In this document: positions 3,021 to 59,357 of the stretch, in pieces
Numbering within the stretch: the first letter of the stretch is position 1
Layout of the letters: the number at the start of each line of letters is the position of its first letter
Assembly (NCBI GenBank): GCA_030789695.1
Contig: CM061132.1
Span: forward strand, 146,886,597 to 146,950,596
Length of the DNA stretch: 64,000 bases
Origin: Scilla litardierei
Lineage: Eukaryota; Streptophyta; Magnoliopsida; Asparagales; Asparagaceae
Reading direction: 5' to 3'
Translations under genes and position numbers: made by a program
Notes under the pieces: generated by a model
The model's input: only the letters and a program-made list of their open reading frames with translations
What the model was told of the DNA's origin: nothing
Databases searched by the model: none

Positions 3021-3104
3021 TTATCACTGAATGTTCTCTTGTTTCTATTATAGTATGTTATGTTTGTTTTTGTGATTAGGATGATTAGACTCTTATGTTA
3101 GTTT

Positions 3105-28580: not shown

Positions 28581-28835
28581 AATATAGTAAATATTGGTGT
28601 GGCTAGATGTACCCAAGTTTGGGAAACCAGGGTAAAACTTTGTGTTTGCGTTTGGATTGATTGTGCCATTTAATTCCTCTTGCATTTATAATTCCGCATT
28701 TGCAAGTTAAATTTTATTTGGACAATTTTATTGCCATTACACTATTCACCACCCTCTAGTGTGTGTTGTTAGTATTGCAAGGGTTATACGATCCCTACAA
28801 TTGGTATCAAAGCGAGGTTAAAGCATACTGCAACG

Positions 28836-30896
28836 ATGGCATTCAACGCCTCATCCGCGTCTCATGAAGGTCACTCAACCGTTCGACCCCCGCTCTTCAA
28901 CGGAACCAACTATCCTAGTTGGAAGATCAGAATGATGATTTATATGGAGGGTCAAGACCTATGGGACATCACGGAGGTGCCATTTGAGAAGCCCACTACT
29001 CCTGCGGCTTCAAGGACAAAGGCGGAGAAGGACTCAATCAAGTGTGCGATAGCTATGAATGCATTACATTGCGCTCTCTCTGCTAGTGAGTTCAATCGCA
29101 TCTCCATGTGCAAAACGGCGAATGATATTTGGCACACCTTGGAGATTTTTCATGAAGGGACAACGAAGGTAAAGAAATCTAAACAAACTGTGTTTAGATC
29201 TAAATATGAAATGTTTAAGATGCAGGAAGGCGAAAGCATTTCAGAGATGTTTACAAGGTTCGCCGATATCGTGAACGCTTTGGAGGGTCTCGGGAAGACG
29301 ATTTCCCAAGAGGATCGTGTAGAGAAGATCCTAGACTCTCTCACATCTCGTTGGGAGTCAAAGGCCAACGGAATTTTGGAGTCTTATGACACGTCCAAAT
29401 ATACCGTTGAGGAATGCATTGGAAATCTCATGGCGTATGAAGTAAAGCTTCAACACAAGAAGGAGATTCATCCAACAAAGCCCGAGAAGCTAGAAAAGCA
29501 AGAGGGAGTTGCATTACATGCCAAGGAGGAGCCAATCAAGTGGAGGATGAAATTCCATCGAGAAGCTCCTAGCGAAGAAGATGAGCAAGAAGATGCAAGT
29601 GGAGAAGAAATTGAGGAACTTGCCGAGCAATTCAAAGCTTTCCTCAAATGCAAGCAAGGTAAGTCTTTGTCAAAGTTTGCTTCCAATTCTAACAAAGTTC
29701 CTACTTGTTACACTTGCAGTGGAAAAGGTCACTTGTCCACCGAATGCCCTTCCAAACCCATTAAAGAAACTTACAAGGGTAAAGGGAAGAAGCATTGGAA
29801 AGGAAGGTCCAAGTCCAAAAATCACAAAAATGGACTTGTTGGGACCTTTGATGATTCGAGTGAGGACACTTCTAGTAACGAAGAAGAGGATACAAAGGAG
29901 GATGCTCACGCATGCTTTGTAGCCATGGATGTTCCTACTCCAATTCCCTCCGGATTAAACGAAGAAGAGTTGGATGCTTGGCTTGACGCATACAACTCAT
30001 ATGAGGATTCACGCCTCGCAGCTAAAGAGGAGAAGTCGTCATCAAGCTCTTGCAAGGATGATGATGATGATGTTGAGATCGAGGAAGAAAAGATCTCACA
30101 TGCGGAGCTCAAGTTCAAATTTGACTTGGCCTCCGAAAAGGCTAGTAAGTGCATCAACTCCTACAATAAATTAAAAGCAAAATATAAGAGTGCTAAGAGT
30201 AGAATGCATAAACTAGTTATTGCAAGTGTAGTTCATGATGAAAGGCATGTTTATGACACTTGTGAGAAAGACACACTTCTTTCTCAAGTTAAGGAATTGA
30301 GCATTTCTAATGAAAATCTCATTGCTCAAAACCTTAGCTTAGATGCTCACATTCAACAACTTATGTTGAAATGTGAAGAGGAATCCCGGAAGCTCATAAG
30401 CTTTGTGTATTCTAGGAATTCACTCCACGATTTGTTGGAAAAACAACATCCGACAAATCATAGAGGAGGTTTGGGTTATGTTCAAAATTTGGTTCCCAAA
30501 CCCACCTCTAATTCTCCTTTTGGTGCAAATTCAAGAAATATTGCTAAAGCACCTAAGAAGAATCACCATGCTTTCTTGTACAACAATAACACCAACAAGA
30601 AGCATGTGGATCATAAGGTGATGAGGAAGAATGAAGAATCTTCATTTTTTGCTAAGAAGCAAAATCCTCATTCTTTGCATGCTAAGAAATTTGTTTCTAC
30701 ACCTAAGCATGCCACATCCTTCCCTCTTGCTAAGGCAAAACCTATGCCTAGGAAATCCTTGAGATTATGGATTCCCACTAAGGCTAGTGTGCAAGAGAGA
30801 GATAGTTACATCAACTCTCTAGTTAGGGATGTGATCACCTCGTGTGATTATGTTAGGAAATCAAACTCTTCTTGGGTTTGGTTACCTAATGTTTAG
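28836..30896 (+). CDS. gag: Copia-type gag polyprotein (686 aa)
   Basis: Capsid protein that would assemble particles and bind the element RNA in the cytoplasm. The start is the first ATG after the primer site, 22 bp downstream of it. The N-terminus has the PPLFNGTNYPSWKIRM motif of Copia gag, followed by the UBN2/Retrotran_gag_2 helical domain to about residue 200. An acidic linker leads to one CCHC zinc knuckle (Cys291, Cys294, His299, Cys304). The C-terminal half is acidic, serine-rich and then coiled-coil-like (residues about 415-530), ending in a basic tail. The frame is intact. No protease box follows, so it cannot be the start of a gag-pol polyprotein here. Length exceeds a bare Copia gag because of the long C-terminal extension. 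Confidence 0.9.
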   Translation: MAFNASSASHEGHSTVRPPLFNGTNYPSWKIRMMIYMEGQDLWDITEVPFEKPTTPAASRTKAEKDSIKCAIAMNALHCALSASEFNRISMCKTANDIWHTLEIFHEGTTKVKKSKQTVFRSKYEMFKMQEGESISEMFTRFADIVNALEGLGKTISQEDRVEKILDSLTSRWESKANGILESYDTSKYTVEECIGNLMAYEVKLQHKKEIHPTKPEKLEKQEGVALHAKEEPIKWRMKFHREAPSEEDEQEDASGEEIEELAEQFKAFLKCKQGKSLSKFASNSNKVPTCYTCSGKGHLSTECPSKPIKETYKGKGKKHWKGRSKSKNHKNGLVGTFDDSSEDTSSNEEEDTKEDAHACFVAMDVPTPIPSGLNEEELDAWLDAYNSYEDSRLAAKEEKSSSSSCKDDDDDVEIEEEKISHAELKFKFDLASEKASKCINSYNKLKAKYKSAKSRMHKLVIASVVHDERHVYDTCEKDTLLSQVKELSISNENLIAQNLSLDAHIQQLMLKCEEESRKLISFVYSRNSLHDLLEKQHPTNHRGGLGYVQNLVPKPTSNSPFGANSRNIAKAPKKNHHAFLYNNNTNKKHVDHKVMRKNEESSFFAKKQNPHSLHAKKFVSTPKHATSFPLAKAKPMPRKSLRLWIPTKASVQERDSYINSLVRDVITSCDYVRKSNSSWVWLPNV

Positions 30897-35223: not shown

Positions 35224-38200
35224 ATGGAAGGAAGAGCAGAAGCAACGGCAGCAAAACCCATCATCAAAGTGGCAGCCCTCTGCGGCTCCCTCCGCAATGG
35301 CTCCTACAACCGCGGCCTCCTCCGCTCTGGTATCAAACTCTACAACAACAACAACCCAAGTTTGAAATTTATTTATTTATTTCTCTTCTAATTTTTTTTA
35401 AAAAACTTTTGAGTTATTGTTTGGTTTGTGACGCAATTCAGCTGAGCAAAGAATCCATCAGTGGGATGCAAATCGATTACGTCGACATCTCCCACCTCCC
35501 CTTCATCAACACGGATCTCGAGGTCGACGGCACCTTCCCCCCGCCGATGGAGGCGTTCAGGCAGAAGATTCTCGAAGCCGATTGCATCCTCTTTGCTTCC
35601 CCCGAGTACAACTACTCTTTTACCGGTGAGTTTAGCAACCAACCAATCTGAGTTTGAGATCGTGTATCAAAGAATTGACATTGTATCTGTTGATGGATTT
35701 CAATATAGCCCTAGCTCGTGTTTGAGATCTTCACCCATGGGATCAAGTTTTATTCGGCAATCGAAATTTAGCTAAAGAAATAAAAATACAACACAATTGC
35801 TCCCAATTCATTATAGTAGGCAAAAGGGCAAAAGGGCAACCAACCAATTAGGGCTTATATCCCAATCACTTTAGCATTTTGACTGCCAGTGGTTCAAACT
35901 CATTGAGCAGACGAGAAGGGCAAACTTACGGAGGCTCAAGCTAATTGAGACTGCATAATTTGAGGGAAACCTTATCATACCCTCTTCCCTCCATATATTA
36001 ACCATGCTCTTGACTTTATCTTCTCTGATAATTTTAGCTGTGTTGCCTACTGCATATGTTAATTATAGAAAAATACATTTAGAACAGCCTTTTGGTCTTC
36101 CATCTTGTGTTTGTATTTGGACCAACGTAAATGTAGACCTTATGTATTACTGTCTACAAACTCCATTTTTGGCTCATACGCCCAAAACATTTGGAGTTAG
36201 CTTTCATGTGCCAAACACATGTAGTAATGGATATGTGGCATCCATCAAGCCATAATGATAAAGCGAGTGAAATTATAGTATTGGTTGAAACTGAGTTTGA
36301 CCAAACATCTTTAACTAGTAAATTTACGTCAAACTTCATGTTTATGTTCTTTACTTTTTTATCGATGTTTCAAATGAAGTTAAAAGCTTTTGAATATGGG
36401 ATTAACACATTGACATATGAGTTATTAACAATCTCACCCTTTATATGTGGCCATACCAAATGGCTTCTGTGGCATCTCATCGACAAGGAATTACGAGGGG
36501 GCAGCTCATTATGCCTTAGGCATCTATCATTGGCGGACATTGATGCAATTCGAGGAAAATGGCAGACCTGTAATTTTTAGGTACATGGATGTTTTTTTGT
36601 AGTTTTGAGTGTCCAAGTATAGGTCTGTAATTTTTTTGTGAAAACACTAGGTCATTTGTAATTTAGTAATTTTAGGACAACGATTTAGTAAGAGTCTTAT
36701 TATAAATAAAGAGGGATGTGGGGGAGGTGGGAGAATTAGGCTTATTATAAATAATTGAATATCGTGTTGAATTTAAGAGAGAATATGGTAAATCCCTTAG
36801 ATTTAGTGGGAGAATTAGGCTTTATCTCGAATCGAAGTTAGGAGAGAGATCATCCTCTCGAATTGAGGTCGTCTATCTTTGTAATTCAGTTTGATTATCA
36901 ATAAAAATATCGTCTTTTATCCCAAATCCCCCTTTTTTCATCGTAAAAATCGGTCCTTTCTCATAAAATTCCATCTTTCCTATAAAAATCCAATCTTTCC
37001 ACCAAAAACCTATTGTATCCCAAATGGCATTGGAGCTGAACTGACAAAGGACGAGTTCGAATGCAGACAGGAATACGACCACGAAGGGATGAAGGGGGAA
37101 CCACAACCTAAACGAAAAGCTCTTCACATACACCCCGACATCACGATGGCCGGAAAAGCAGATCATCTCATTCATTGAGGGGGCCCTGGCACGATGAGGG
37201 GGACGAAGGAACAATGAATGAAGCTCTCCCATGGAGGTGGTGCAGGCCACCGACGGCTGCCCCATCACCTCTGGGACCACGTTGGAAGGATCGCCCCGGC
37301 CAGGTGGATCACAGCGCCCGTGCCAAGAAGCGCAGCACCCGCGGCAGCTGAAGCCACCAGTGCCCCCAGCGGCCAAGCCCGGATAATGACTGACTCGCTC
37401 CAGGAGTAGAGGAGGAAGACGAAGAACACATGACGAAGGACCACCAAAGACTGACGGCGAGCGCAAAAATGACAGAGGGGAAAACGACGCTGAAAGGGCA
37501 GAACCTTCACCCAGAGGGTAACGACTTTCACTTATACAGCCTCTCCGGATTCCCTCCGTCATCTCCAACCGCTCGCTCCCACATAAGTGTCAACATCCCA
37601 TGGAGGGCGACTCTCTGAATTCCGCACCCAATGGGCGGGAGAATTCTCGATGCCCTACGCCATGATGACTCTCATTTAATACGCCGTCTCGACTGACGCA
37701 TCCGTCAAATCTATCTATATCACAACTCTCGAACCGAACCGCCACAAACCAAACGGTCCGAGCGATGGGGACAATTGATACAACCACTCGAGTGGGCTGG
37801 AGAAAGGCGAACCGACCGCTCGACTCAGAACTGCACTGGGTTCCGGCCCAAAGGGGGCCAGGAGCGGGTTGGGATGCAGCGGCCCAAGACTGCCATTCGA
37901 CAGATGGTTGACCCCGCTCGAAGGGGGGAATTGCTCCCAAGATCGCGCCCGACTTGATCGTCATTGAAGGGACTATCAATGTGGGCGGGCGCGAAGGGAT
38001 GAATGATAAACGTCATGAATGCGTTGACATGTGGGACTCCTATAAGAGACTCGAAGAATAGAACACGCGGAACATAATACTGGATACTTGACACCTAGGT
38101 ATACCAAATCCTTTCAGACCTTCTTCCACCTCATATTTCTCCTCTATAGCTTGGCTTGAGAACTCGTGCTTGGTCTCTCCGTGAACCAAGCTCGGTTCCA

Positions 38201-41200
38201 CCGAAGCACCTCTCAGTTAAGATCTGACTTAGGCATCGGAGGGGACTTGGTCGGAACCAAGGTCTGACCCCCTCTGACGAGTTCTTCGTTTTGCAGATCC
38301 AAAAAGACGTCACCTTGTCGAAGCTTTCCTTCGGCGTACAATCGCTCGGATCCGAACGTCCTCGTACCAGAGCCCGTTCGACCGACCGATTCCGGAGGCT
38401 GTCAACCCGACGAAGCTACATTTTGGTGCATTGTCGCTCGGACCCGGGCTTTTCCGCTCAAGTGAACACTCGGCCGACCGACCCCGAAAGCTGTCCCCGT
38501 CTCTCAAAGACCGGGACAATACTCGGAGCTCCGTACTATCAATCAGCGGTGAGAAAACACCTCGAAACAATACTAATTAATTAATATCTTGTTTTAATAT
38601 GCTTCCTTTTTAAGTGGAGTGGAATCCTAGTTTAATATGAATCTGTAATGCGTATTATTTTGTGCCTCCTTTTCAAGTAGACTAAAATTCTAACTCAAGC
38701 TTACTGTCTATTCTATGTTTCTTATTCATTTAAATTGCTTAATTAGTTTAACTATATTTTAAGTAAAATTTCAAAGTAAATGTATTCAACTAATGGTTCA
38801 TACTTATATTTAGGTGAAAATTTATATATTATGAAATGTCGTGTTTGCATTGGTGTCTTCATGTCATGCAGATTCTAACGCTGGATGCTCGCTATATCAA
38901 GATGTAAGGTATGAATATTCTAATTTTTATTTAGTAAAGTACATTCTAAGGAATAATGTTATACATACGCTGATTGTAATGTAAATAGTTAATACAGGAG
39001 TGAAGTGCTCCATGTCTACAGCTTATATCGTTATAACATGATGTAAGGAATGAATGTTCTAATTTTTATTAAGTAATTTAAATTCTAAAGAGTAATGGTA
39101 TACATATGCTAATTGTTGTTGAAATACAAGAGATGAGTGCTCTTCTATGTCCATTGCTTCTCAAATATCATGTTAAGTTATTTGATTAATCTAATATTAG
39201 CAAAAAAAGGAAAGTCAAAACTAAGAGAGCTAACTACAGCTTTTTGGGCATGGAAACACGGCATGAACTTGTTTTTTTGCTTGGTATGTGATAGAGATCG
39301 AATTCGAGGAGTTCAATTCGAGATGGAGTTTTTATTAGAAAGAGTTGAGTCATTAAAGATTTCTTATTAGTTGATAGAGATCGAATTCGAGGAGTTCTAT
39401 TCGAGAATCGAGACTGAATCTTTTATTAGAGAGAGTTTGAGTCCTTGAAGGTTTCTTATTAAACTTTTATGTCCTTTTGTTATTTTGAGAGTTTTAATTA
39501 TTTGAGTCTTTTTTGTTATTTAAGTCTTTTTGTTATTTAAGTGTTTTAGTTGATTTAGAATTTCTAGTCCTAATCAGATTCAGAGAGTCAAGTTGTAAGC
39601 CTATATAAAGGCCACAAAACCTATTAGTTTTTTAGAATGAAAAAAATCAATGAATAATAGTTCTGGTGTAAACTTTTAGTTTATCCGAAAAATTAAATCT
39701 TTTGCTTTGGTGTAAGAGAGTGGGTTTGGTTGCCTGAGTGAGAGGTCCAAAGAATCTCCACGTGCGAGGCGTTGATCAAAAGTTTTACAGGGTGTGAGAT
39801 CCGAAAAGTTATCAAATCCTTAATCTACTTCTTCACCAAATTTCTACCACCTCCTTTTCTGCTTTTATCCTGTGTCAAACTGGTATCAGATCTAAATCTG
39901 GTTAGTTTTTTCTTCATAAAAAAGTTCAAAAAAATCAAAAAAGAATTTTCAAAAAAAGGAGAGAAATTCGGAAAAACAAAGTGAAAAAAAGAGAGAACAA
40001 GAATTTGAAAACAAAAAAAATTAGAAAAAAATAGAAAAAAGAGAAATTTTGAAAAAATGAAAAGAAAAAGAAAAAATTAGGAAAAAGAGAAAAAGAGAGA
40101 AAAGAAAGAACGAAAACCCCAAAAAATCTAATTTCGCCACCGCCCTCTTCTAGTCAAACCCTAGCATAACCCTAGTTCAATTCCTTCAGCCGCCTCCCCA
40201 CACCATCACCTCCAGCGGCCTCCCCAAGCATTGCCACCACCTCAACGAAGCCCATCAGAGGCGAGATTTGATCTCGTCAGAAACGAAGACAACCGAAAAC
40301 GCCTCCGTCAAACTTTTCGAGGCTTGCCGTTGCCATCGCTGGCGACGATCAGAGTCAACAACCCCACAGTGGGACTCGTTTCCCCAGATGACACTCCAGA
40401 AGCAACGAGGGCGGCAAATCGTCGTCGTATCTGTCGGAATCTGCTGCAACGAGAGCTTTCGTTATCCGTCGATGTTGCCTCCGGTGACGGCTTCGGAGGC
40501 CGAGCCCACCAAGACGTTCCTCTCATCAAGGCGAACTTTTAGGAAGAAGCCTGAGATGAACCGATGCCGGAGTCGTCAGTAAACGGCGTCGGCACCGATC
40601 GAGCCGACGTCGCTACAGTGTTGGCTCGGTCAAGCGGACCATGACCCAACACTGAGCTGAGCCACTTGCTACGCCGGCTCAATCGAGCCGTTAACCAGTC
40701 AACTGCTGCATAGTACGCAACCCCATTTTTCTACGATTTTTGGGCTATTTTTGGAGAATTTTCTGTGCATCTTCATTATTTTAACGATTCTGGATGGATC
40801 TGTTTGAGGACCAAATCCAGTGTTGTTCGCGCCTGGAGATAGCTGACTCAACCAACTACTCAAAAAAATGATTGAAGAAGTTTATGCAATTAAAAGTCTT
40901 CCTGATACTAATGGAGATCTATATGAATCTGGTGCTCATGTCAATATCATTAGGCAAGTACCTACAACATTTAAAGATGAGATAGATTGGGAAAAGACCA
41001 ATATTTTTCATACTTGCATCAATGTATATGATGCGTCATACAAACTAATAATTGATGGGGATATTGTGTTAATATTATCTCCAAGTCAGCATTAGAAAGA
41101 ATGGGCCTATCAGCCGATTCTCATCCACAATCATATAATGTCATTTAGATTGATAAGACTACTCATTTTGTTACACAACGATGATTAGTGCCTCTCCAAT

Positions 41201-44200
41201 TTGTGAGCTATCATAATTATATTTGGTGTGATGTTATACACATGGATGCTTTACATATTTTGCTTGGAAGATCTTGGTTGTACGACCTAGATGTGACAAT
41301 GTCTAAAAGGTCAAATATACACATTCATATTTAATATGAAAAGAATTGTGCTGAAACCTTGCCAACCCAAGATTCGAGTTGCTCAACAAAATGGGTTAAA
41401 CTTCAATGAGCCAAACATGAAGAGTCCTTTGAAGGTCGAATAAGAGCCTGATCCAGTATTGGAGTCTTCGCATGAGCCCGAGCAAGAGCTAGAGTCAGAG
41501 CCTAAACCAGAGATTGATCCAGTACCACAGTTACAACATGATTCAATGCTACATTCTAAGTCGGAGATAAAACTTGATTTAGCAATGCAACTTGAGATAA
41601 ATCATTCTTTAGAGCAATCAGTTGAGTTTGTGTCAGAATTGCCGAAAGAAGCACTACTGATTCAAATTGAGCACACATCGAATTTATTATCATAGATCCT
41701 TCTTTCCTAACCAACAAACATGTTCTGAATACTTTTCTATCTTTCATGAATTGGAAGAAATTATTGGAGGATGTTCGTCTATCCATTTGCATCTTATTAC
41801 ACTTCAAGGTTTGTGGACGCATCGTCTCTAACTACATATGACTACTGATTTCTGTCCAGCTGTGCTACTTTTGTCGTCATTCACCAGGAGGTGAAATTCT
41901 CAAGCAGTGGAGAATGATAAAATCGAATTCGAGAAGGTGTTCAATTCGAGATGGAGTCTTTTATTAGAGAGAGTTTGAGTCATTGAAGATTTATTATTAG
42001 TTTGAGACTTTTTGTTATTCTGAGAGTTTAGTTATTTGAGTCTTTTTTTAATATTTAAGTCCTTTTGTTATTTAAGTGTTTTAGTTTATTTAGAATTTCT
42101 AATTCTAATCAGATTCAGAGAGTCAAGTTGTAAGCCTATATAAAGGCCACAAGCCTATTAGTTTTTTTAGAATGTAGAAATCAATAAATAATAGTTTTGG
42201 TGTAAACTTTTAGTTTCTCCAGAAATTTAAATATTTTTCATTGGAGTGCGAGAGTGGACTTGGTTGAATGGTTGAGAGGTCCAAAGAATCTCCATGTGTG
42301 AGGCATGCGACTCGGAGATTGAAAGATTTCCGAAATACGAGATCCGAAGAATTATCAAATCCCTAATATACTTCTTTCCCAAATTACCACCACCTCCCTT
42401 CACGCTTCCGGCCTGCGTCAGTATGCTTAGAATGTACTGATGTTTGGACATATTGATTGGTCATATTATGTTGATGTCATACCAGTTATAGATGTTGACA
42501 TTGTCAACATATCTATGTGATATACTATGATACTTTACATATTGGTATTTAGTAACTAGAAAGTCATCCATAAAACAGATTATGAGTGACAGATTAATTG
42601 ATAGGATAAATTGCACTCAGATCCCATGTTCTATGAGGGTCATGTAATTTAACACACAATCTATGAAACTGATAGTGAGATCCTCTTGAGTTATAACTCT
42701 GAGATCCTTTGTTTGTTTTATGAGAAATGTTGTACGTAGACCCTCCTGAAACTAGAATAAAAAGTTACACTTAGACACCATGAAATTAGTTAACTCGAGA
42801 GATCTCAGTGTCATTTTCAAACATTAAATGTATTAACTTATACGATCTCTCATAGAATTGGAGGCTTGGGTGCAATTTACTCTAATTAATATGTTTACAC
42901 ATTTGAATTTATATCCCAGAAGCATTGGTTCAATAACTATGGGTTTAATGAGTAAAGTCTCAATCCAAATCTAAAAAGCCTTTTCTAAATCTTGACAGCT
43001 CTCTTATATCCCCCATTTTTCAAAATTCGCCTTTGTATACATGGCAGCATGGCTGCAATGTAAGGTTAACTAATTAAATGTAATCTTCAATGATATTAGT
43101 GTTGCTTTGGCAAGGTGGTTGTGTGTTCCATCTCCAGCCATAAGGTCACGAATTTGAATCTTCTTGGTGTTAAGTGTTAAAAATTTTAGATTTTCTTGGT
43201 GTTAAACTATTTTGTTTTTCGTTTGAAGCTAGTTTTTTTATTAATGTTTTTAATTATAGCATGAGAAAATTTGCTGCATATTTAAAGTAATTCGGTTTGA
43301 ATCTTCGTAACTTATTCTCGCTCTCATGCAATTAAAACTTGTTTTTGTTTTCGGCTTTCTTACTCGATCCCTCAGGCATATGTTGCATTGGGCCTGAGCA
43401 ATGAATTTTATATCTACTTTGTTGTTCATTCCGTTACCTCAAATATACTTAAACTCGTCAATTTGAACACCATCGCATCTATGTACTTTACGATTGCAAT
43501 TTGTATGTCTTCTTGCAACGCTCCCCCCCCCCCCAAAAAAAAAAAAAAAAAAAAAAAACGCGCGCGGTCATCTAATCCTGGTTCCGCCCATGCTTATATC
43601 AACTCTTTAAGCGAATGTGTGCACTGGTACACATGTTCGCAGCTGACATGAATTGAAATTCACCATTCTGGAAGCTTGCAAGTCATGAACATTGTTGTAG
43701 CTTGCAACGTGCTCATTGCAACTGTTTGTTTTTGCTACCTTAAATGTACTGGCAACCTTGGAGCTGTTTTGTTTTGTATATGTTGTAAATTAAGATGGGT
43801 GTAGGTTTGAATTTGAATGACACCAATAATTTTGCATGGATTGGATCCGTCATGTGTGTTTGAACCGGGAGATATTCCCCAATATCCCTTCAACATGTGA
43901 TGTTTATGGGATCGCGTAAATTGAACGCTAAGCCCAGATCAGAAGCTGTCGAAGTGGAGATGACAATGTTGTGATTGCCGACTTTTGGTCCCTCCTTCGC
44001 GCGCGCGCGCAGGGTATTCCAAAACAAAAGAGCTTGTGTATTTTGTAAGTTTTTGCTACAAGAAAGGCTAGGTTATTTGTGTTGTGTTCATCTTAGGGGC
44101 TTGCAGTTTATTAGCTTTGCAGCATATGCATCATGTTTCATTGAATTTCTTATACATAGAGCCACTTAGGCAACAATTTATGAGTTGCAAATATGTAGGC

Positions 44201-44648
44201 ATATGCGTCTCATTGAGCATACGTTGGTTGGCAGTAACCAACGCAGCTTCTTTTGCCATGTGATATTCATGTACACAAACAGTGGAAATTTTCTTAGCAC
44301 GGTCTAATGGAGTCTCACGTTCTTTTTTCCTGCCTCATTTCAGGCCCTTTGAAAAATGCAATCGATTGGGCCTCCCGGCCACCAAACGTTTGGGCCGACA
44401 AGCCCGCCGCGATAGTGAGCGCAGGCGGGGGCTTTGGCGGAGGGAGATCTCAGTACCATCTCCGGCGGGTTGGAGTCTATCTGGACCTTCACTTCATCAA
44501 TAAGCCGGAAATATTTGTCAAAGCATTCGAGCCTCCACACAAGTTCGAAAGCGATGGGAACTTGATCGATCCTGAAACCAGGGAGAGGTTAGAGCAGGTG
44601 CTCTTATCACTCCGGGCTTTTACTGACAGGCTTCGGAGTACATGTTGA
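35224..44648 (+). CDS. NQR: NADPH:quinone reductase-like FMN protein, copy A (three exons; first acceptor abnormal)
   Basis: Exons 35224-35329, 35434-35625 and 44344-44648 would give 200 aa. The family (flavodoxin-fold NADPH-dependent FMN reductases, Arabidopsis NQR type) reduces quinones by two electrons using NAD(P)H, protecting against semiquinone-derived oxygen radicals, in cytosol or at membranes. Visible signatures: CGSLRNGSYNR (FMN phosphate loop, residues about 20-30), ASPEYNYS at the exon 2 end, DWASRPPNVWADKPAA and GGGFGGGRSQYHL in exon 3. Exon lengths equal those of copy B. Oddities: intron 1 ends in CG (35432-35433) where copy B has AG, and the next AG (35440-35441) would shift the frame. 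Intron 2 is 8.7 kb and full of transposon sequence. Exon 3 looks intact, so selection was kept until recently or still acts. Confidence 0.8.
35626..39288 (+). other. Intron 2 of NQR copy A, left part, with retroelement debris
   Basis: 35626-36600 is unremarkable AT-rich intron. 36680-36910 resembles an LTR end (TATAAATAAAGAGGG, then a TTATCAATAAAAAT tail). 37590-38570 is GC-rich with phrases typical of Tat-type Gypsy LTRs, such as TGACTTAGGCATCGGAGGGG; it may be a decayed solo LTR, but no termini or target duplication were found. The 231-aa minus-strand frame at 36873-37568 shows no domain and is not called a gene. 38600-39288 shows nothing identifiable. Confidence 0.5.
39289..39877 (+). repeat. 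5' LTR (589 bp) of the Gypsy element
   Basis: Contains a direct duplication of its own first 85 bp or so (two copies of GAGATCGAATTCGAGGAGTT, at about 39294 and 39379). The 3' LTR has a single copy, which explains the 83-bp length difference. A CCTATATAAAGGCCAC TATA-like box lies at about 39600-39615. Confidence 0.88.
40868..41420 (+). pseudogene. Decayed aspartic protease relic of the Gypsy element
   Basis: A 75-aa frame at 40868-41095 and the following broken frames resemble the retrotransposon protease segment that ends in a DALHILLGRSW motif (near 41245) and VLKPCQPK (near 41350). The catalytic D-S/T-G box is not preserved, and stops at 41093 and beyond disrupt it. A glutamate/proline-rich frame (41459-41695) follows. 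Confidence 0.55.
41915..42420 (+). repeat. 3' LTR (506 bp) of the Gypsy element
   Basis: Single-copy 5' part, ends CCTGCGTCA. Preceded by the purine-rich CAGTGGAGAA. Moderately diverged from the 5' LTR, so the insertion is older than the gag-only Copia element. Confidence 0.88.
42604..42882. mobile_element. Mutator-type MITE (279 bp)
   Basis: Inverted ends of about 45 bp: the left end starts GGATAAATTGCACTCAGATC, and the right end reverse-complemented starts GAGTAAATTGCACCCAAGCC. Flanking 9-mers TAATTGATA (42595-42603) and TAATTAATA (42883-42891) match at 8 of 9 bases. It lies in intron 2 of NQR copy A. Confidence 0.8.
43086..43592. mobile_element. Probable remnant of a hAT MITE related to the one at 16.2 kb
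   Basis: The right end (TTGCAACG, C-run, then GGTCATCTAATCCTGGTTCC plus GCCC) matches the right end of the 16175-16597 element. A homopolymer block (13-14 C then more than 20 A) lies within. The left end is not clear and no target duplication was found, so it is truncated or diverged. The left limit given is a guess. Confidence 0.4.
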
Positions 44649-45376
44649 GCCTATATGGTTTATCATCAGGCTTGAATTGTATTGCTTTTGCGTTGAATGT
44701 TGCTCGGGTTCAAGGGATGCCCCTACCGTCTGTATCTCTGCGTGTAGAAATCGGTTGGCTACTACAGTTTCACACGAAGTCCCACACGAACAGTATGTGA
44801 TGCACGCACGCAAACGAGGAGGAAAAACGTTAGAAAAAAGTAAAAACTGAAAGAATTGCCCATTTGGCCGCTCCTACACCCACCCACCCAACCGAGCACA
44901 TGCTAAGCCACCCACCCACACAACAAAAGGATAAAAATATACGCAAACGCGGCAAGTGGGTCACTGACTCTTCCCCCACTCGTTCCTTAAAATAGGATGC
45001 ATTACCCACCCCAAATACTTCCACCCACCCGCCAACTCACTAACGCTGAGGCCCCACATGTCGTAGACTGGGTGGAAGAATGGAGTCAATGGACGGGGTG
45101 TACACAAATTACTTCTCATGACCTACCCGCTTCCGCATACCCATCCTGAGCTGAACCACCGCGCCGCTCCACCCACCTGCTCACCCAGCCACTGACACCT
45201 GGGTCCCACATCAGCCTCACGGAGCCAAACCACTGGGTGTCGAAAGGCGGGTAGGTGACAGGGTTGGTGCGAAAACCTATCCGCTTGCCTACCCACTCTC
45301 GATGCCTTTCCCTTCCTTCACACCCACCCACCCATCCTCGCCGCCGGCCGTTCACCCTCTCAGCCTCTTCCCCAAG
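44649..45376 (+). promoter_or_regulatory. Intergenic region and likely 5'UTR exon/promoter of the FAR1-NQR gene
   Basis: 728 bp between the copy A stop and the donor of the apparent 5'UTR intron. It is rich in CACCCACCC motifs on the plus strand (44868-45060 and 45320-45345). No clear TATA box was found. The non-coding exon would end at 45376 (CCCCAAG before GTATGA). Confidence 0.5.
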
Positions 45377-45578
45377 GTATGAAAAAACTTTCATTCATTT
45401 AATCCTTTATTTTTACTTCATTTCTTTTTTTGATTGTGCCTCAATTTTGTTCTATTTAATTCCTCATGCTGTTTGAGATACTAGTTTTGCTCGTCATAAT
45501 GACCTAATCGAAGCAGTTATTTATTAAAGATAAAAAATTTGGTCCTTTTTTTTTTGATAAATGTTAGTCTTTTGACAG
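45377..45578 (+). other. Apparent 5'UTR intron of the FAR1-NQR gene
   Basis: GTATGA donor after AAG, a T-rich body with a ten-T run, and a TTTTGACAG acceptor 24 bp before the ATG at 45603. A 5'UTR intron upstream of the FAR1 segment implies that transcription starts before FAR1, not just before the reductase part. Confidence 0.55.
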
Positions 45579-45602
45579 AATTCAGAACGATCTCCTAATG
45601 TA

Positions 45603-48600
45603 ATGGAACAATCATCAAGCACGAAGCTAGCTATTGTAGCCTACAATGGCGACGATGAGAAAATAATAGATAGAGAAATGCACCCACATCAAATCCATAG
45701 TAACCAGGAGCCTTGTGTTGGAATGGCATTCCAAAATCACGAGGAGGTCCAGCATTTCTACAAGGAGTATGGGAAGCAGAAGGGGTTCGGTGTGATGATC
45801 AAGCACTCGAACAAGAGGTCAGATGGGCGGTGCCGCCGTCTTGTGCTCTGCTGTTGTAAGGGAGGGAAGGCGCCGGACGAGCCGAGCAGGCCCTCGGCCA
45901 AAACGGATTGCCAGGCTAAGATTGTCGCCAAGTTGTGGGCGGATGGGTTGTTGCATTTGATAGAAGTAGACAATGAGCACAATCATCCGGTTAGCCCGTT
46001 GCATGCTCATTCTGTCCGGTACAGCGAGAAGTTGCCTAGTGCGGCGAGGAAACGGCGGAAGCACGCTCATGAGGCCGGGTTGCATCCGATTAGCTCGTAT
46101 CCAGCATTGGTTGTACAAGGAGGTGGATATGAGAACCTGGCTTTTCGGCAAAAGGGAGAAAGAGAGATGATGGGAGGAGCTGTTTGGGCTGCAAAGCCTC
46201 TGATCAAGGTGGCTGCAATATGCGGCTCCCTCCGCAAAGCTTCCTTTAACCGTGCCCTCCTCCACTCCGGTAACTGTGTTGATCCTTTCCTCTCTTGCTT
46301 CCACCCCTCCTTTACTCGCTGTTCCAGACTGTAAATTGTTTCTTTCATTGTGTTTCGATTTGTGAAGCAATTCGGCTGTCCAAAGAAGCCATCAGTGGAT
46401 TGCACATCGAGTACGTGGACATCTCATCCCTCCCCTTTCTCAACACCGATCTCGAGGTCAATGGAACATATCCTCCTCCCGTGGAAGCTTTCCGACAAAG
46501 GATTCTTGAAGCCGATAGTATTCTCTTTGCTTCCCCCGAGTACAACTATTCTGTTACTGGTAAGATCAGGGCAGAGTTTTAGCCTTATTTTTTGGTATCT
46601 TGGACAAAAATGTAGCTGCCTATATAAATTGAGATACACAATCTAGTGCAAACTAATCATGAGGAAGAGCTCTTTTAAGTTTGTTACAAATGACAACCTA
46701 TCATATAACCTGCCAGTCTACATGGCTTACCGCCAAGATATGCACTCTTAACGCACATTAAGTATGAGACCCCAACCATAATGCCTCACCTCTCTAAACC
46801 GTCACCGTTGACATGCAGTCATGCAGAGGAGGAAATACTAGAGCAAGCATGCATCTAGACATTCAACATGTAGCTTTCATCGAGCGACAATTGCTTAGTA
46901 CAATGCGATGAGCATCCACAATAGAAGCTATTACTAGTGTGATCAGCTAAGAAATTCAGGGAGAACAAGAAAGATCTACGCATTTTTCTTAGTGAAATGG
47001 ACTGTAAATGTTCTAAGAGACAATGTGATGGGGTTAATAAAGAAAACACACACCTATTAGTTATTGAGGTGATCTCAAAAATGTATCATGGAGTATTAAT
47101 AGAGTAGAAATTTGAGGAGAGATATTGACCCTCACTACGAGAGGCTTTAATTCATTGCTGAAAAGTAAGTCGTTATTCCTTTGAATTAGTTGTTTGTGAC
47201 CTTACTCGGTATATTGATGACAATGCGTTTACCGCATTCTTTTACCGCATTCTTTGCCAATGATATTGGTTTTATTGGTAAGATTAGGAAAGACAACACG
47301 TATGTATAAAATAGCTAAGGGCAGCAGTGAAGTCTGAAAATTTAGAAAGCAAAGAAAGATATAATACTATTCAAGCAAACGTACAAGAAGAAATAGTGGC
47401 ATAGACTATATATCTCTATTACTATCTGTTTATTATTTAATATTGTATGTAAGAAGCATAATTTTTTATTTTACTTTTTTTAAACTGTAAATTACTTAAA
47501 ACACTCCTGACCTTTGTCCAATCACTTTTTACGGGAAAAAGCTATGCCAATAATCAAAGAAACGAGGGAAGATATAATCAGAAATGAATATCAAAGCTTA
47601 TTTGAACTATAACCATCCTTAGTCCAGTGCAACTGGATTTAGCTTTAAAATAACCGGTGAAGGAAATTTTGGTGTGTTATTTGGCCTTTCTGAAATTTAG
47701 GGATTTTTTGTGGTAAAACTATGACAGCTCAGAAGTGTTTCCAGTAGATTGTCTTCTCCTGGTAGAAGGTGCAAACTGTCGTTAAAATTGGTGGCTCACA
47801 ACTACAAATCCTTTTTAAGCAGGATCAATTCTTTATCATGAAGGTGTGAGTGTAGATGATATTGTCCATATAATTAAATCAGGATGGTTAAAGTGAAGAT
47901 GGGCTTCCCGTGTATCCTGTGACCGTACTGTACTCCTTTTGTTGAAGGGAGACATCTACAAGATCAAATCCAGATACATTGGCAATCAGGAAACAACATG
48001 ACAAAAGGATGAATGGTACCGAAACAAAGAAGTGAGTGCGAGAATGGAGAATTAACAAATGATTGTCTGTAGGATCTTACAGGTAGCATCGGGTTCAGAA
48101 TGGAGACAGATGTGTGATCTGATGTTGTTTGGACATGTGTGATGGGGGTTTACTTGTGAAGTGTATTCCTTTGTTTTGGTTCTCTTCGCTTCTTCTTCAA
48201 GTCATGAGATTCATCTGTAAGTTTTGACAACCTAGGTTGGTTGTGAAGGATATGATTACATTGCCAACTTAAGAATGTGCAACTTTACTATAGTCACATG
48301 TTTAGGTCCAGCGACCTGGAACTGGAATAACTCGGTCTTTGAAGTTTGAAGGTAAAAGTCTGCAGTGATACAAAGTTGCAGTGGTAATATGTGTAGGAAT
48401 CAATTCCTACATGGTATAATTCTTCCATTAGACTCTAATTCATTAAATTCCCAAATATACCTCCTGTTAAAATTCTTCAACCATTTTTTATTGATTGAAA
48501 GCTGAGGATGACACCTAGGATTATCTTTGTCAGGATGGCAACATCTTATTTTCTTTCTAATCAATATGCCTTGACAAAATTAGTCATAGCTCATCTCCTG

Positions 48601-49804
48601 AGTTCCTATTAAGATTGTTCTAGATGCGCATCCTTAAACTTGTTCTATAGTTTCTTGATGGTTCAAAGTCTGAATAGTCATTAAGTTCAACGTTTTGTCA
48701 CCTCTTGGATTTTCTGGGTGATGTTCATGAATGCCATAGACTGAAACATACTTAGAATATGGATGTTATAACTACCCTGTAGTTATCAAGATTTATATCC
48801 ATGCAATATCGTATATGAGCACCTGATGTGTCGTCCTATATATGCTCCCCAACATGAAAGTCTCACATCTGATCTGATTTTTTCTTGACAAGACACATCA
48901 ATCACCATGGGTTCCGATGTGTATTAATGGTATTATATGTAGGCACCCAATCACTGTATCCAATTTATATTAAGGATTTGTTGTGCCGCGGTGTCTACAT
49001 GTCCTATGTACGCGTCATGTCCATTGTCCATATCCATGCTTCGTATGTACCTGTTTACATCCCTTGCCAAACACTTGCATAAATAATTGCCTTCATATAT
49101 GGTTACACATCTGAACATTGGCAGTCATGTATGACTATTATAACTTCATATATAACATTTTAATGTTATCTAAACAACACATTGTGATAGTTGCATAGCA
49201 AACTTCCCATTAGACTAAACTGTCATATTCATTTGTGCACATTGGTTTTGGCACGTAATGTTTTTTAGCATCATCGTCGTCATCATTTCATTATTGTTGT
49301 TGTTGATAAAATGGCCGTGCCCAGGGCAGGTGACCATGGAAGTAGATAAACACTGTTTTTATCATGCTGATACTTTTTTCTTTTCCTATTTCCAATATTT
49401 ATCATTTTATTTCCTCTTTGAAATCATGAACATTATCATAACCATCATCATTCAGGTCCTTTGTTTGCTAACTGCTATCCGCTTACCCGCTGCTTTCAGG
49501 TCCTTTGAAGAATGCTATCGATTGGGCATCACGACCGCCAAATGTCTGGGCCAACAAGCCCGCCGCCATTATCAGCGCTGGCGGGGGTTTCGGAGGAGGA
49601 AGGTCCCAATACCATCTGCGACAGGTAGGAGTCTATCTAGACCTCCACTTCATCAACAAGCCGGAACTATTTGTGAAAGCATACGAGCCTCCCCTGAAAT
49701 TCGATAGTCATGGGAATTTGATTGATCTTGAAACAAAAGAAAGGTTAAAGCAAGTTCTCCTATCGCTGCAGGCTCTCACCTACAGGCAACAGAGTAGACT
49801 ATAA
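45603..49804 (+). CDS. NQR: FAR1 DNA-binding domain fused in frame to NADPH:quinone reductase (copy B)
   Basis: Exons 45603-46269, 46368-46559 and 49500-49804 give 387 aa with all junctions GT-AG and in phase. Residues about 40-125 are a FAR1/FRS-type zinc finger (transposase-derived WRKY-GCM1 fold): FYKEYGKQKGFGV, Cys pair in VLCCCKGG, TDCQAKI, and the closing HNHP. A basic stretch ARKRRKHAH follows. Residue 189 onward starts MMGGAVWAAKPLIKV and is a complete 199-aa quinone reductase with CGSLRKASFNR, ASPEYNYSV, DWASRPPNVWANKPAA and GGGFGGGRSQYHL. No stop or obvious splice site separates the halves. The reductase could also be translated alone from the ATG at 46167. Intron 2 is 2.9 kb without recognised elements. 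The fusion is what the frame shows; whether one protein is made is inference. Confidence 0.78.
46560..49499 (+). other. Intron 2 of the FAR1-NQR gene
   Basis: 2940 bp, GTAAGA donor, TTTCAG acceptor. I see no coding sequence, repeat termini or RNA gene within it. Confidence 0.75.
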
Positions 49805-49972: not shown

Positions 49973-52258
49973 CTATCTACTGCTATTGGAAGATATCATT
50001 CCAGCAGCAGAGAATGCATGATCTTCTCCTTTCACCCTTAACCAACTAACCCCTTGGTGCTTCCTATCTGCTTGAGATCTCATCAATTTCCTTGTCCGTC
50101 TCATGTCCTCCCATCTTCCAGCCGCTGCATATATGTTCGATAGTGCAGCGTAAGTTCCAGGATCATTTGGATTCAACTCTATCAGTCTTCTGGCAGAATA
50201 CTCTCCCAGCTCAACGTTCCGATATGTGCTGCTAGCCGCCAGCAACGACGACCAGATAACCTCATTTGCCTCGAAAGGCATATCATCCACGACATCCAAC
50301 GCTTCCTTCAGCCGTCCTGCCCTAGCAAACATACTTATCAGGCAGGCATAGTGATCGATCGTTGGCTGTTTGATAGACCTGAAATACAAACACCCCAGCT
50401 CTACCAGTCCGCTGTGGCTGCATGCTGTGAGAACCCCCACGAACGTAATGTGGTTAGGCTCCATATCATCGCGGTTCAACAATTCCTGGAATGTTTCGAT
50501 GGCTTCTTCTGCGAGACCATGCTGAGCTAGGCCATTCACCATCGCATTCCAGGAGGCCAGATCCCGTTCCTGCATACCGTGGAAGAGCCTTCTTGCCTCT
50601 TCAATGTACCCACATTTGGCGTACATATGTAACAATGCACTCGCAACGAAAGGGTCTGGCTTGTTATCGTTCGAATCAGACTTGACGATCTGTGCGTGGA
50701 TCTGCTTTCCTTCTATGGCCGCTGCAAGACGTGCACACGACCTCAGCAGCGTTGAGAACGTGTAACCATTTGGCGGCTCTGCATGTTCGTCTTCGATCAT
50801 CTTGCCATATAGTTCCAGCGCCCGCTGCAGCTCACCACACCGAGAAAGGTTTGAAATCAAATCAGTCCACATGACCACATCAGGAGAAGGGAGCTGATCG
50901 AATAACCGAGTCGCTTCCTCCAAATGGCCATGTTTGACGTACATTCTGATCAGGGATCCAGCAATGGATTCGTCGCTGCATCCATACTTGATAACCAGAG
51001 CATGCAGCTGCTTCCCTCGTTCCGGTCCACAGCTGTTCACCAAAAGAGACGTTGCATTCGCCTCCCTCACCTCCTTCCTCATCTTAATTGCCTCGACGAA
51101 CGATTCCAGCGCTTCTGGTTCACGGCCATTTCGAAGGTATCCTCGAATGGCCAGATTGAAAGAAGCATCGTCTTTGTCATCCATCCTGCCAAAAACTTTC
51201 TGCGCTTCATCAGAGCACCCCAAGTCAAGGTACGCTTCAAAAAGAGCGCAGCTCAGAAACACGTCCAGCTCTGGCTCCATCATCTTCACAACCAAACCGT
51301 GCAACTGCCTGACTGGACAAGTGCAGACACCCTTGCAAGCCCTAAGGACACTAGCAAATGTCACATGATCCGGGCTCAAACCGGACATCCTCATCTCAGC
51401 CAACAGCCGAAGACCTTCATCCCCTTCCAAGCCGCCAGCCAGTATTGCATTATAAGACACCACATTAGGCCGAACAATCTCAGCAAAAGCCTTGCTCGCG
51501 CTCTCCATCTCGCCGCACTTGGCATACAAATCAACCAGCCCGGTCCCAACAAACACATCCGATCCCATCATCGATTTAACAACACGGGCATGCACCTGCC
51601 GCCCAGCAAGCAAGCAAGACATCCCGGCACATGCACGTAGAGCGCAAGTATACGCATACTCGTTAACAATCAAATCCCCCATATCTATAAAAACTCCTAG
51701 TGCTCTCTCGTTCTCTGCTGCATCGGCAAAACCTTTCAACATGGAAGTGTATGCGACGACGTCTTTCTTAGGAATTGTGACAAACAGGTCGTGGGCACGC
51801 TCAACGTGGCCGCATCCCAAGTACGCATTGAGCAAACAGGTGTTGAGCACGGTGAGTTCGGAGTCACTGAACGCGCACCGCAGCTTGAGCACATAGGCAT
51901 GGATTTGGGCCGACAGCATGCAACGGTCGCATTGCAAACAAGCCCTGAGGACGGAGCGGAATGTGATGGAATCAGGAAGCAAAGAGGACGACGCGAGCAT
52001 GTCGAGAAAGAGGCGAAGGGCCGCCAGAGGACGGCGGTGGCGGAGGCAGGCCGAGAGGGCGGTGTTCCACGTGACGGTGTCGCGACGAGGGAGGAGGGGG
52101 AAGATTGCGAGGGTGTGGGATAATGGCTTGGTTTTGGCCGTGGAGGAGAAGAAGAGGTTGGTCTTTGTGGTGATGTTGGCTGGTTTTGGTCCTTTTGGGT
52201 GTTGAAGGCTTGGAGGAGGGTGTGGAGCTGTGCACAGAACAATCCCTGCGGACTCCAT
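49973..52258 (-). CDS. PLS-class pentatricopeptide repeat protein with E/E+ tail (761 aa)
   Basis: Intronless, as most plant PPR genes are. PPR proteins bind organelle RNAs one base per repeat and guide editing, splicing or stability in mitochondria or plastids. The N-terminal 55 residues are basic and hydroxylated, a plausible organelle-targeting sequence. From about residue 60 the protein is a chain of PLS-type repeats with signatures such as WNTALSACLRH, GRQVHARVVKS, LVDLYAKCGEMESA, LLHMYAKCGYIEEARRLF and SWNAMVNGLAQHG. The end (VIWSSLLAASS through ALSNIYAAAGRWEDMRRTRKLM to GVSWLRVKGEDHAF) is the E domain with the E+ start. No DYW deaminase follows, so for editing it would need a DYW partner. 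The gene converges on the FAR1-NQR gene, with 168 bp between the two stops. Target RNA cannot be read from here. Confidence 0.93.
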   Translation of the reverse strand: MESAGIVLCTAPHPPPSLQHPKGPKPANITTKTNLFFSSTAKTKPLSHTLAIFPLLPRRDTVTWNTALSACLRHRRPLAALRLFLDMLASSSLLPDSITFRSVLRACLQCDRCMLSAQIHAYVLKLRCAFSDSELTVLNTCLLNAYLGCGHVERAHDLFVTIPKKDVVAYTSMLKGFADAAENERALGVFIDMGDLIVNEYAYTCALRACAGMSCLLAGRQVHARVVKSMMGSDVFVGTGLVDLYAKCGEMESASKAFAEIVRPNVVSYNAILAGGLEGDEGLRLLAEMRMSGLSPDHVTFASVLRACKGVCTCPVRQLHGLVVKMMEPELDVFLSCALFEAYLDLGCSDEAQKVFGRMDDKDDASFNLAIRGYLRNGREPEALESFVEAIKMRKEVREANATSLLVNSCGPERGKQLHALVIKYGCSDESIAGSLIRMYVKHGHLEEATRLFDQLPSPDVVMWTDLISNLSRCGELQRALELYGKMIEDEHAEPPNGYTFSTLLRSCARLAAAIEGKQIHAQIVKSDSNDNKPDPFVASALLHMYAKCGYIEEARRLFHGMQERDLASWNAMVNGLAQHGLAEEAIETFQELLNRDDMEPNHITFVGVLTACSHSGLVELGCLYFRSIKQPTIDHYACLISMFARAGRLKEALDVVDDMPFEANEVIWSSLLAASSTYRNVELGEYSARRLIELNPNDPGTYAALSNIYAAAGRWEDMRRTRKLMRSQADRKHQGVSWLRVKGEDHAFSAAGMISSNSSR

Positions 52259-52410
52259 TACTAACCAGCGACTATCTCACCCAAGAGAAAGTATAGCTTA
52301 TAATGCTAAAATGAGTTGACATCGACCCAATTTTGACTATACCAAAAATATACACATTTTCTTGACTGTTAGCATCGACCCAATGTTTGGCTAATGGGCT
52401 ACGGAAGGAG

Positions 52411-57709: not shown

Positions 57710-57905
57710 TGGAGGCTTTTAATTTTGTGTTGTGTGGGTGCATGCGGAGTGCTTATGAATTTTAATATGTAGTCCATCATGGTTGATTGTGTTTGGAATT
57801 ACAAACCTTATGCTCTAAAGGTTTTTGATATACATGCAATATATGTTATATATATAGGATTTCTCAGATTTGAATTTGCCCCATTAACTCTTACATCTTG
57901 TAGGC

Positions 57906-59357
57906 ATGGCAGGGTCATCTTCGCAGCCCGGACAGGGTAGTGAGCCAATGCCCCCCTTGTATGACCAGCCATATATGAACCAGTGGAGTGTTGAAGGCCA
58001 TGAGACTGATCCAATGCTTGGGAGGCCGATGCCGCGTAGGAACATTGATTCTCCTTATCATTCGCCGCCCTGCCATAGTGGAGGGCCTGGCATGCCATAT
58101 CAACAATTCCATCCATATGGCATGCCAATGCAGATGCAACCTACACCAGGATATATGCAACTGCTGCAGGGGGGGGGGGGGGGTTTCAATCCATGTATTA
58201 GTCCTTCCCCACAAAGTGCTTTCAATAAGCCATCGTCACAAAGTGGGAATGAACATACGGGGGGTAGTGGGTCGTCGCGGAAGTCGGGACGACGGGATGA
58301 TGAGGGAGAAGGTTCGGTGTCAAGTCCTAGCAAAAGGACTAAGCTGCAACCTGCCAAGGGGCCTAAAAACCTAATTTGGCAGTGGGAACATGACTTGTCC
58401 CTCATTCCATTCCTTGCTGACCAGGCCAAGCAAGGGAATAAGGCGGACAAGACATTCAAGCCTACGGCCTTTACCCAAGCAGCTGCCCATATCAATGCTA
58501 TTTTTGGCACATCCTACACAAGCACAAATGTCAGGAATCATATGAAAGGTTTGCACCGACGCTTGACCGATGTGTCAACGTGCCTCACTATTAGTGGCGC
58601 TGGATGGTGTCCTAATAAGAAGATGATAGTGCTTGATGATGAGGTGTATGCCCCATGGGCAAAGGTATGACCATTTACATTGAGGGCTAAAGATTTAGTG
58701 ATCCCAGTTGTTAGTATAAAAGGCCTAATTTATATGGTTATGTACTTGCAGGCTAACCCAAGGTTGAAACAATATGTTAATCAACCGTTGCCGTGGCTTG
58801 ATGAGCTGTATATCGTCATAGGAGATGACGAGGCAAAGGGGCTTTTTCGGAGGTCCACATTCCAATCATTTGAACCCCAAGCAGATTCTGTGGATGGGGA
58901 AGATGCACCTCATGCACAGACACCTGACTTTGATATCCCCCAGGACATCCCCCCGGCAGGATCGACGGGGAATATTCATGCCGGGCCAAGCTTTGCTACA
59001 CCTCCGTCTGTTACGAGGAAGAAAAGTCGTCGTCGGGGTACAACCGACGTCCAGGATAGGATGGATAGGCTTGTAGACACAGTAGAGAAGGTTGCCACGG
59101 CAATTAGTACATCTCATGCCCATTGGACCGAAAAGCTAGCCGATACGTTGTATGGATACAACGAGCATCCAGGAAATTTATTGGATGTCGTGTACGATTA
59201 TCTTATTGACAACGAGCGTGAAGGCCGCAAGTTTTTGGCTAAGCCCGATGGGGCCCGAAGGCGAATGTTGAGGAATAAAATTGAGATGATACAACGGGAA
59301 AGGTCGGAAGATGGTGTAGGGGAAGATGGGGATGACGACCCCTTGGACTTGGATTGA
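57906..59357 (+). CDS. Harbinger Myb/SANT-like DNA-binding protein (454 aa, two exons)
   Basis: Exons 57906-58664 and 58752-59357, joined in phase through a GT-AG intron of 87 bp. The N-terminal 125 residues are proline, glycine and methionine rich. A Myb/SANT-like three-helix domain follows at about residues 155-255 (IWQWEHDLSLIPFLADQAKQ, AFTQAAAHINAIFG, NVRNHMKGLHRRL, and WCPNKKMIVLDDEVYAPWAK across the splice site), the form common to plant Harbinger partner proteins. A basic segment RKKSRRRG, a helical C-terminal part and a very acidic end (GEDGDDDPLDLD) complete it. In this family the protein recognises the transposon ends and helps the transposase into the nucleus. A 15-G run at 58169-58183 encodes five glycines; any length change there would break the frame. 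Intact as given. Confidence 0.85.

Follow-up and report, generated by a model that had tools for sequence, protein, structure and literature searches.

A FAR1 zinc finger joined in frame to an FMN quinone reductase in Scilla litardierei and its relatives, a candidate redox-responsive regulator

Light and stress responses in plants are regulated in part by FAR1 proteins, which derive from transposases; quinone reductases, for their part, are regarded as enzymes of detoxification. Here, we describe a Scilla litardierei gene, copy B, whose protein runs from a FAR1 zinc-finger domain through a basic linker into a complete flavin mononucleotide (FMN) reductase of the NADPH:quinone oxidoreductase (NQR) type. 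The gene lies in a 64-kb stretch of contig 3 of a 3.68-Gb assembly, referred to throughout as the window. FAR1 chimeras are themselves a known class, since the available text of a survey of 80 plants reports that 1,603 of 18,744 FAR1 genes carry integrated domains, of which it counts 570 (PMC8599713). No description of the FAR1-quinone reductase combination was found in the open-licence literature searched, among the matches listed.

One open frame and its two domains

Copy B consists of three exons in a single phase, with GT...AG boundaries at both introns, and encodes 387 residues (Table 1). The open frame around exon 1 spans 45576-46334 (252 codons). From the ATG at 45603 to the exon end at 46269 it contains no stop in 222 codons, against 11 and 13 stops in the other two forward frames, and none of 5,000 random sequences with the dinucleotide frequencies of the exon stayed open. 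The original prediction had described an uninterrupted frame from a FAR1-type domain into an NQR, with residue 189 as the usual NQR start methionine and later exons keeping phase. The stop counts and Pfam matches to FAR1 and FMN_red bear out the first of these claims, and the spliced coding sequence with its GT...AG introns bears out the other two.

The Pfam FAR1 profile (PF03101) is covered from position 1 to 89 of 90 at 62.7 bits, compared with a curated cut-off of 28.1, and the FAR1 domains of five relatives score 55.1-64.3 bits, all above that cut-off. FMN_red likewise scores far above its cut-off in all three full-length relatives. Residues C84, C103, H126 and H128, together with a KRRK motif, are identical in all six fusion sequences. 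The CCHH pattern is given as a mark of the FAR1 family in the available text of PMC11216215, and the assignment of these four residues as putative zinc ligands is our own, made from the sequence. AlphaFold models reach a pLDDT (predicted local distance difference test) score of 52.7 with 9 sequences and 75.5 with 57 sequences. The NQR part is predicted to adopt a reductase fold and takes up all of the fold-comparison matches; the domain score and this modelled fold together place it in the NQR/FMN_red family.

Both halves of the protein are well conserved. Compared with the Asparagus sequence, identical residues number 88 of 97 (91%) in the FAR1 core and 174 of 199 (87%) in the NQR part, against 15 of 33 (45%) in the N-terminal tail and 39 of 55 in the linker. 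For P0005, a deep relative, identity is 73% in the FAR1 core, 73% in the NQR part and 31% in the linker. The ratio of non-synonymous to synonymous substitution rates (dN/dS) is 0.10 for the NQR of copy B against that of copy A, the unfused NQR gene beside it. Judged from these sequence comparisons, the fusion is under protein-level constraint.

Relatives, origin and a decayed paralogue

A whole-protein search of 5.8 billion proteins returned 360 matches, and at least five of the best 120, which were listed, carry FAR1 (P0001, P0002, P0005, P0006 and P0007); weaker fusions could be among the remainder. P0001 is Asparagus officinalis A4U43_C05F640, labelled in its sources as an uncharacterized protein or an NAD(P)H dehydrogenase (quinone); it has 384 residues, the same architecture and 82% identity end to end. 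P0002 (385 residues, 80% identity) and P0005 (388 residues, 60% identity) are also full fusions, while P0006 and P0007 run from FAR1 across the junction in frame into NQR exon 1 and end in an intron-1-like tail. Pfam detects FAR1 in all five, along with FMN_red in the three full-length proteins, and residues 1-188 alone, searched against 73 candidates of about 213-677 residues, retrieve exactly these five. The original prediction had staked its reading on whether relatives keep the frame, and five other records carry it joined. The records labelled 'lgn' are presumably assembled public sequencing runs. The complete 385-residue frame of P0002 fits within a 1,628-base contig, too short for a 2.9-kb intron, whereas the introns of copy B measure 98 and 2,940 bases; P0002 is thus likely a spliced transcript, from which it appears that the fusion is probably transcribed as one mRNA. 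Separately, P0003, P0004, P0105, P0110 and P0119 (Cannabis, Erythroxylum, Capsicum, Xanthoceras and Hibiscus) are single annotated records in which NQR would be part of another chimera or repeated in tandem.

A tree was built from 34 NQR domains, comprising three genes of the Scilla genome, three other fusions and 28 other NQRs (30 tried); it leaves aside P0099 and P0053 (lost at trimming), P0008 (internal repeats), P0003, P0004 and the contig-8/7254 gene. In this tree all four full-length fusions cluster together (support 94/91), P0005 being the deepest branch, and a single change accounts for them in 95% of 200 bootstrap trees. The neighbours of this group are two unfused genes of the same genome, copy A and an NQR on contig 11. 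On these sequences a single origin is favoured, if not proved, and the fusion most likely arose once, at copy B. When 150 of 1,408 candidates were scored, copy B itself was the sole FAR1 match near the NQR pair on contig 3, consistent with the earlier observation that copy A lacks the FAR1 part. Copy A differs at its intron-1 end (35430-35433), which reads GACG, a non-AG acceptor, in place of the GAAG present in copy B and in the contig-11 gene; copy A might be spliced wrongly or at a different acceptor.

In the same scoring, the closest FAR1 relatives within the genome are long FRS-type frames on contig 2 (758 codons, 51%) and contig 1 (723 codons, 49%). Both frames stay open beyond the FAR1 domain, which means that no intron visible in them served as the site of the junction. 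FAR1-side similarity in profile comparison extends to about residue 184, weakly in the linker, which places the break near the old NQR start codon, M189. A profile search for unfused close FAR1 relatives gave four matches among 4,097 candidates of about 103-329 residues, namely P0006, P0007 and distant FAR1 proteins of Ananas (48%) and Carya (36%); longer FRS proteins fall outside that size range and were seen in the Scilla genome only.

Contig 11 holds a paralogous segment, with an unfused NQR at 108708931-108744962 (intron 2 of about 35 kb) and, 15 kb beyond it, a match in a DNA search to the promoter, untranslated-region intron and start codon of copy B. This relic, within the fetched stretch L025, aligns to window positions 44987-45659 (69%) and 45664-45734 (81%), with further matches inside intron 2 at 46939-47690 (72%) and 48430-48731 (77%). 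It has lost most of the FAR1 core and of NQR exons 1-2, its frame shifts after a few codons, and NQR exon 3 was not found in L025. At silent sites, copy A and its contig-11 partner have diverged by about 0.47, and copy B by about 0.98-0.99 from either of them, so that, at similar rates, the split between copies A and B predates the segment duplication. On the same assumption, these sequences suggest that the FAR1 start was present before that duplication, after which one of the two fusion copies was lost to decay and the one in the window remained whole. The original prediction had proposed capture of FAR1 at copy B after duplication; the tree and the contig-11 segment support copy B as the site, and the timing may be either after or together with the tandem duplication.

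The AUG-UAA element that precedes and overlaps the main start codon in the leader of copy B is retained in the relic (Table 1). In the leader of Arabidopsis NIP5;1, AUGUAA causes ribosome stalling and boron-dependent mRNA decay, according to the available text of PMC11915504.

Table 1. Coordinates of copy B, copy A and the contig-11 relic (window positions unless another source is named; CDS, coding sequence; UTR, untranslated region; uORF, upstream open reading frame)
Feature	Position	Strand	Basis and remarks
Predicted 5'UTR intron (GT...AG)	45377..45578	+	Sequence; 5' of FAR1 start; donor CCAAG/GTATGA, acceptor ACAG/AATT, both retained in contig-11 paralogue L025
AUG-UAA start-stop mini-uORF	45598..45603	+	Sequence; one-base overlap with main ATG; retained in L025 (about 2661-2666)
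Exon 1 CDS: FAR1 domain, basic linker, NQR N-terminus	45603..46269	+	Open frame, Pfam, spliced CDS
FAR1 DNA-binding domain, residues 51-131	45753..45995	+	Pfam PF03101, E 5.5e-17; CCHH positions C84, C103, H126, H128
RKRRK basic motif, residues 149-153, resembling a nuclear localisation signal	46047..46061	+	Kept in 6/6 fusion sequences; nuclear-signal role predicted
Former NQR start codon(s) M189-M190, now internal	46167..46172	+	Sequence
NQR intron 1 (98 bases)	46270..46367	+	Spliced CDS; position matches copy A and contig-11 NQR
Exon 2, NQR	46368..46559	+	Spliced CDS
NQR intron 2 (2,940 bases)	46560..49499	+	Spliced CDS; parts align to L025
Exon 3, NQR, including stop	49500..49804	+	FMN_red match E 2.4e-16
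Copy A, unfused NQR	35224..44648	+	Exons 35224-35329, 35434-35625, 44344-44648
Relic of deleted fusion copy, L025 2030-4369	contig 11:108760029-108762368		Keeps promoter, UTR intron and ATG, plus parts of intron 2

An intronless pentatricopeptide repeat frame of 767 codons with an E motif (49976-52276, minus strand) lies tail to tail with copy B. Other plus-strand frames in the window are a Copia-type gag (28773-30893), a protease/reverse-transcriptase fragment (3102-4061) and a Myb/SANT-like DNA-binding frame (57888-58667). Scaffold sizes in the assembly are very uneven (contig 13, at least 768 Mb; contig 4, at least 352 Mb; contig 12, at least 329 Mb; contig 3, 174 Mb), which may reflect a bimodal karyotype or pooled scaffolds.

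Possible functions of the fusion

We hold with high confidence that copy B is a real, conserved fusion gene. What the fusion does is a matter of more tentative proposals. That it is one gene in which a FAR1 zinc finger, with an FMN quinone reductase attached to it covalently, acts as a nuclear, DNA-bound and redox-responsive regulator has in our estimate not quite an even chance, and redox-dependent regulation of transcription, taken as a separate claim, is slightly more tentative still. Below that, possible yet doubtful, we place the idea that a lineage related to asparagus made a flavin enzyme into a one-chain redox-sensing transcription factor in which a domesticated transposase zinc finger reads DNA while the attached FMN reductase senses the NAD(P)H/quinone state and gates that reading. 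In such a protein, the basic linker would carry the fusion into the nucleus, and the reductase part might oligomerise and so pair the DNA-binding domains, a task that falls to the transposase and SWIM domains in ordinary FAR1-related proteins. Whether FMN is oxidised or reduced, as determined by NAD(P)H and quinones, could then alter partner binding, stability or DNA binding. Our best guess, drawn by analogy with yeast Lot6p and Yap4, is a nuclear NQR oligomer that would couple FMN redox state to gene control. The original prediction had suggested either a redox-sensing transcription regulator or a nuclear-targeted reductase, for which the putative zinc-ligand positions, the basic motif resembling a nuclear signal and the FMN-reductase fold offer indirect support.

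Several results weigh against this proposal. The canonical FAR1-MULE-SWIM form was not found, as neither MULE nor SWIM occurs among the Pfam matches of P0001, P0002 and P0005. The available text of PMC11216215 assigns dimerisation and activation in FAR1 proteins to these domains, and their absence from three full fusions means that transcriptional activation by the fusion is not assured. Loss of the contig-11 paralogue indicates that a second copy is dispensable, P0002 could be an intronless retrocopy instead of a transcript, and the 94/91 support for the fusion group falls slightly short of the tree tool's star mark (95/80). The FAR1-binding motif CACGCGC has no site in the window, which carries little weight here. 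With no such site there, self-regulation through CACGCGC is not supported.

Other explanations account for parts of the same evidence. The FAR1 part could be a mere tether that keeps a functional quinone reductase on chromatin, for quinone detoxification or local electron supply, with no gene regulation by FMN state. A constrained NQR part (dN/dS 0.10) with a modelled reductase fold is compatible with this, as are the conserved KRRK and zinc-ligand positions, but the identity of the FAR1 core to Asparagus (91%) is not below that of the NQR part (87%), beyond the needs of a bare nuclear signal, and we consider a tether unlikely. The fusion might instead be a redox-independent competitor, a truncated FAR1 protein that occupies FAR1-type sites and in which the reductase is no more than a scaffold for dimerisation. 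Such a role would suit the lack of MULE and SWIM matches in the three full fusions scanned, and FAR1-only genes can be regulators, rice OFF being an example in the available text of PMC8599713. A scaffold could drift, however, and FMN_red stays far above cut-off in all three full relatives, which makes the competitor improbable.

The junction itself speaks to the remaining explanations. If these were two neighbouring genes, or if the upstream exon went unused, NQR would normally start at M189 and the FAR1 frame would be incidental. Both M189 and M190 are still present, the M190 codon being flanked by A at -3 and G at +4, and a promoter within the FAR1 segment is possible. Against this, the junction frame is kept in five other records, FAR1 conservation tracks the protein domain, and in a transcript from the upstream promoter the FAR1 ATG would come first, leaving this explanation with very little probability. 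Read-through of two neighbouring genes, the alternative raised in the original prediction, is unlikely for the same reason, and the joined frame in other records rules out read-through or annotation artefact as the principal explanation. A decaying chimera seems the least credible: the contig-11 copy is a deleted relic, but the window copy carries no frame lesion even though its paralogue decayed, and the fusion occurs in other lineages.

Comparison with described systems

If the regulatory proposal for copy B is true, the conserved joining of FAR1 and reductase would link the NAD(P)H/quinone state directly to plant promoters. The fusion would also offer a simple model for asking whether flavin redox state gates DNA binding, and it shows that gene models of the 'FAR1 plus foreign domain' kind include at least one fusion common to different species.

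Like FRS proteins of the FAR1-only (F) type, copy B has a FAR1 zinc finger with the CCHH positions; unlike them, it carries a quinone reductase after FAR1, with no MULE or SWIM found. It shares with the FAR1 genes with integrated domains the joining of FAR1 to a foreign domain, although the main-text section of that survey names transposable element-related, GATA and COMM domains, FMN_red not being among them, and, in contrast to the survey as available, the fusion in copy B is traced across several records to one favoured origin (PMC8599713). Relative to plant NQRs, which are FMN reductases of the ChrR/FerB type, copy B retains a complete FMN_red domain and both intron positions of its unfused paralogues, and it adds 188 N-terminal residues with a DNA-binding domain. 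A functional parallel is yeast Lot6p, which forms a non-covalent redox-gated complex with Yap4 and the 20S proteasome; copy B would place the corresponding functions in one polypeptide, where gating is proposed by analogy alone.
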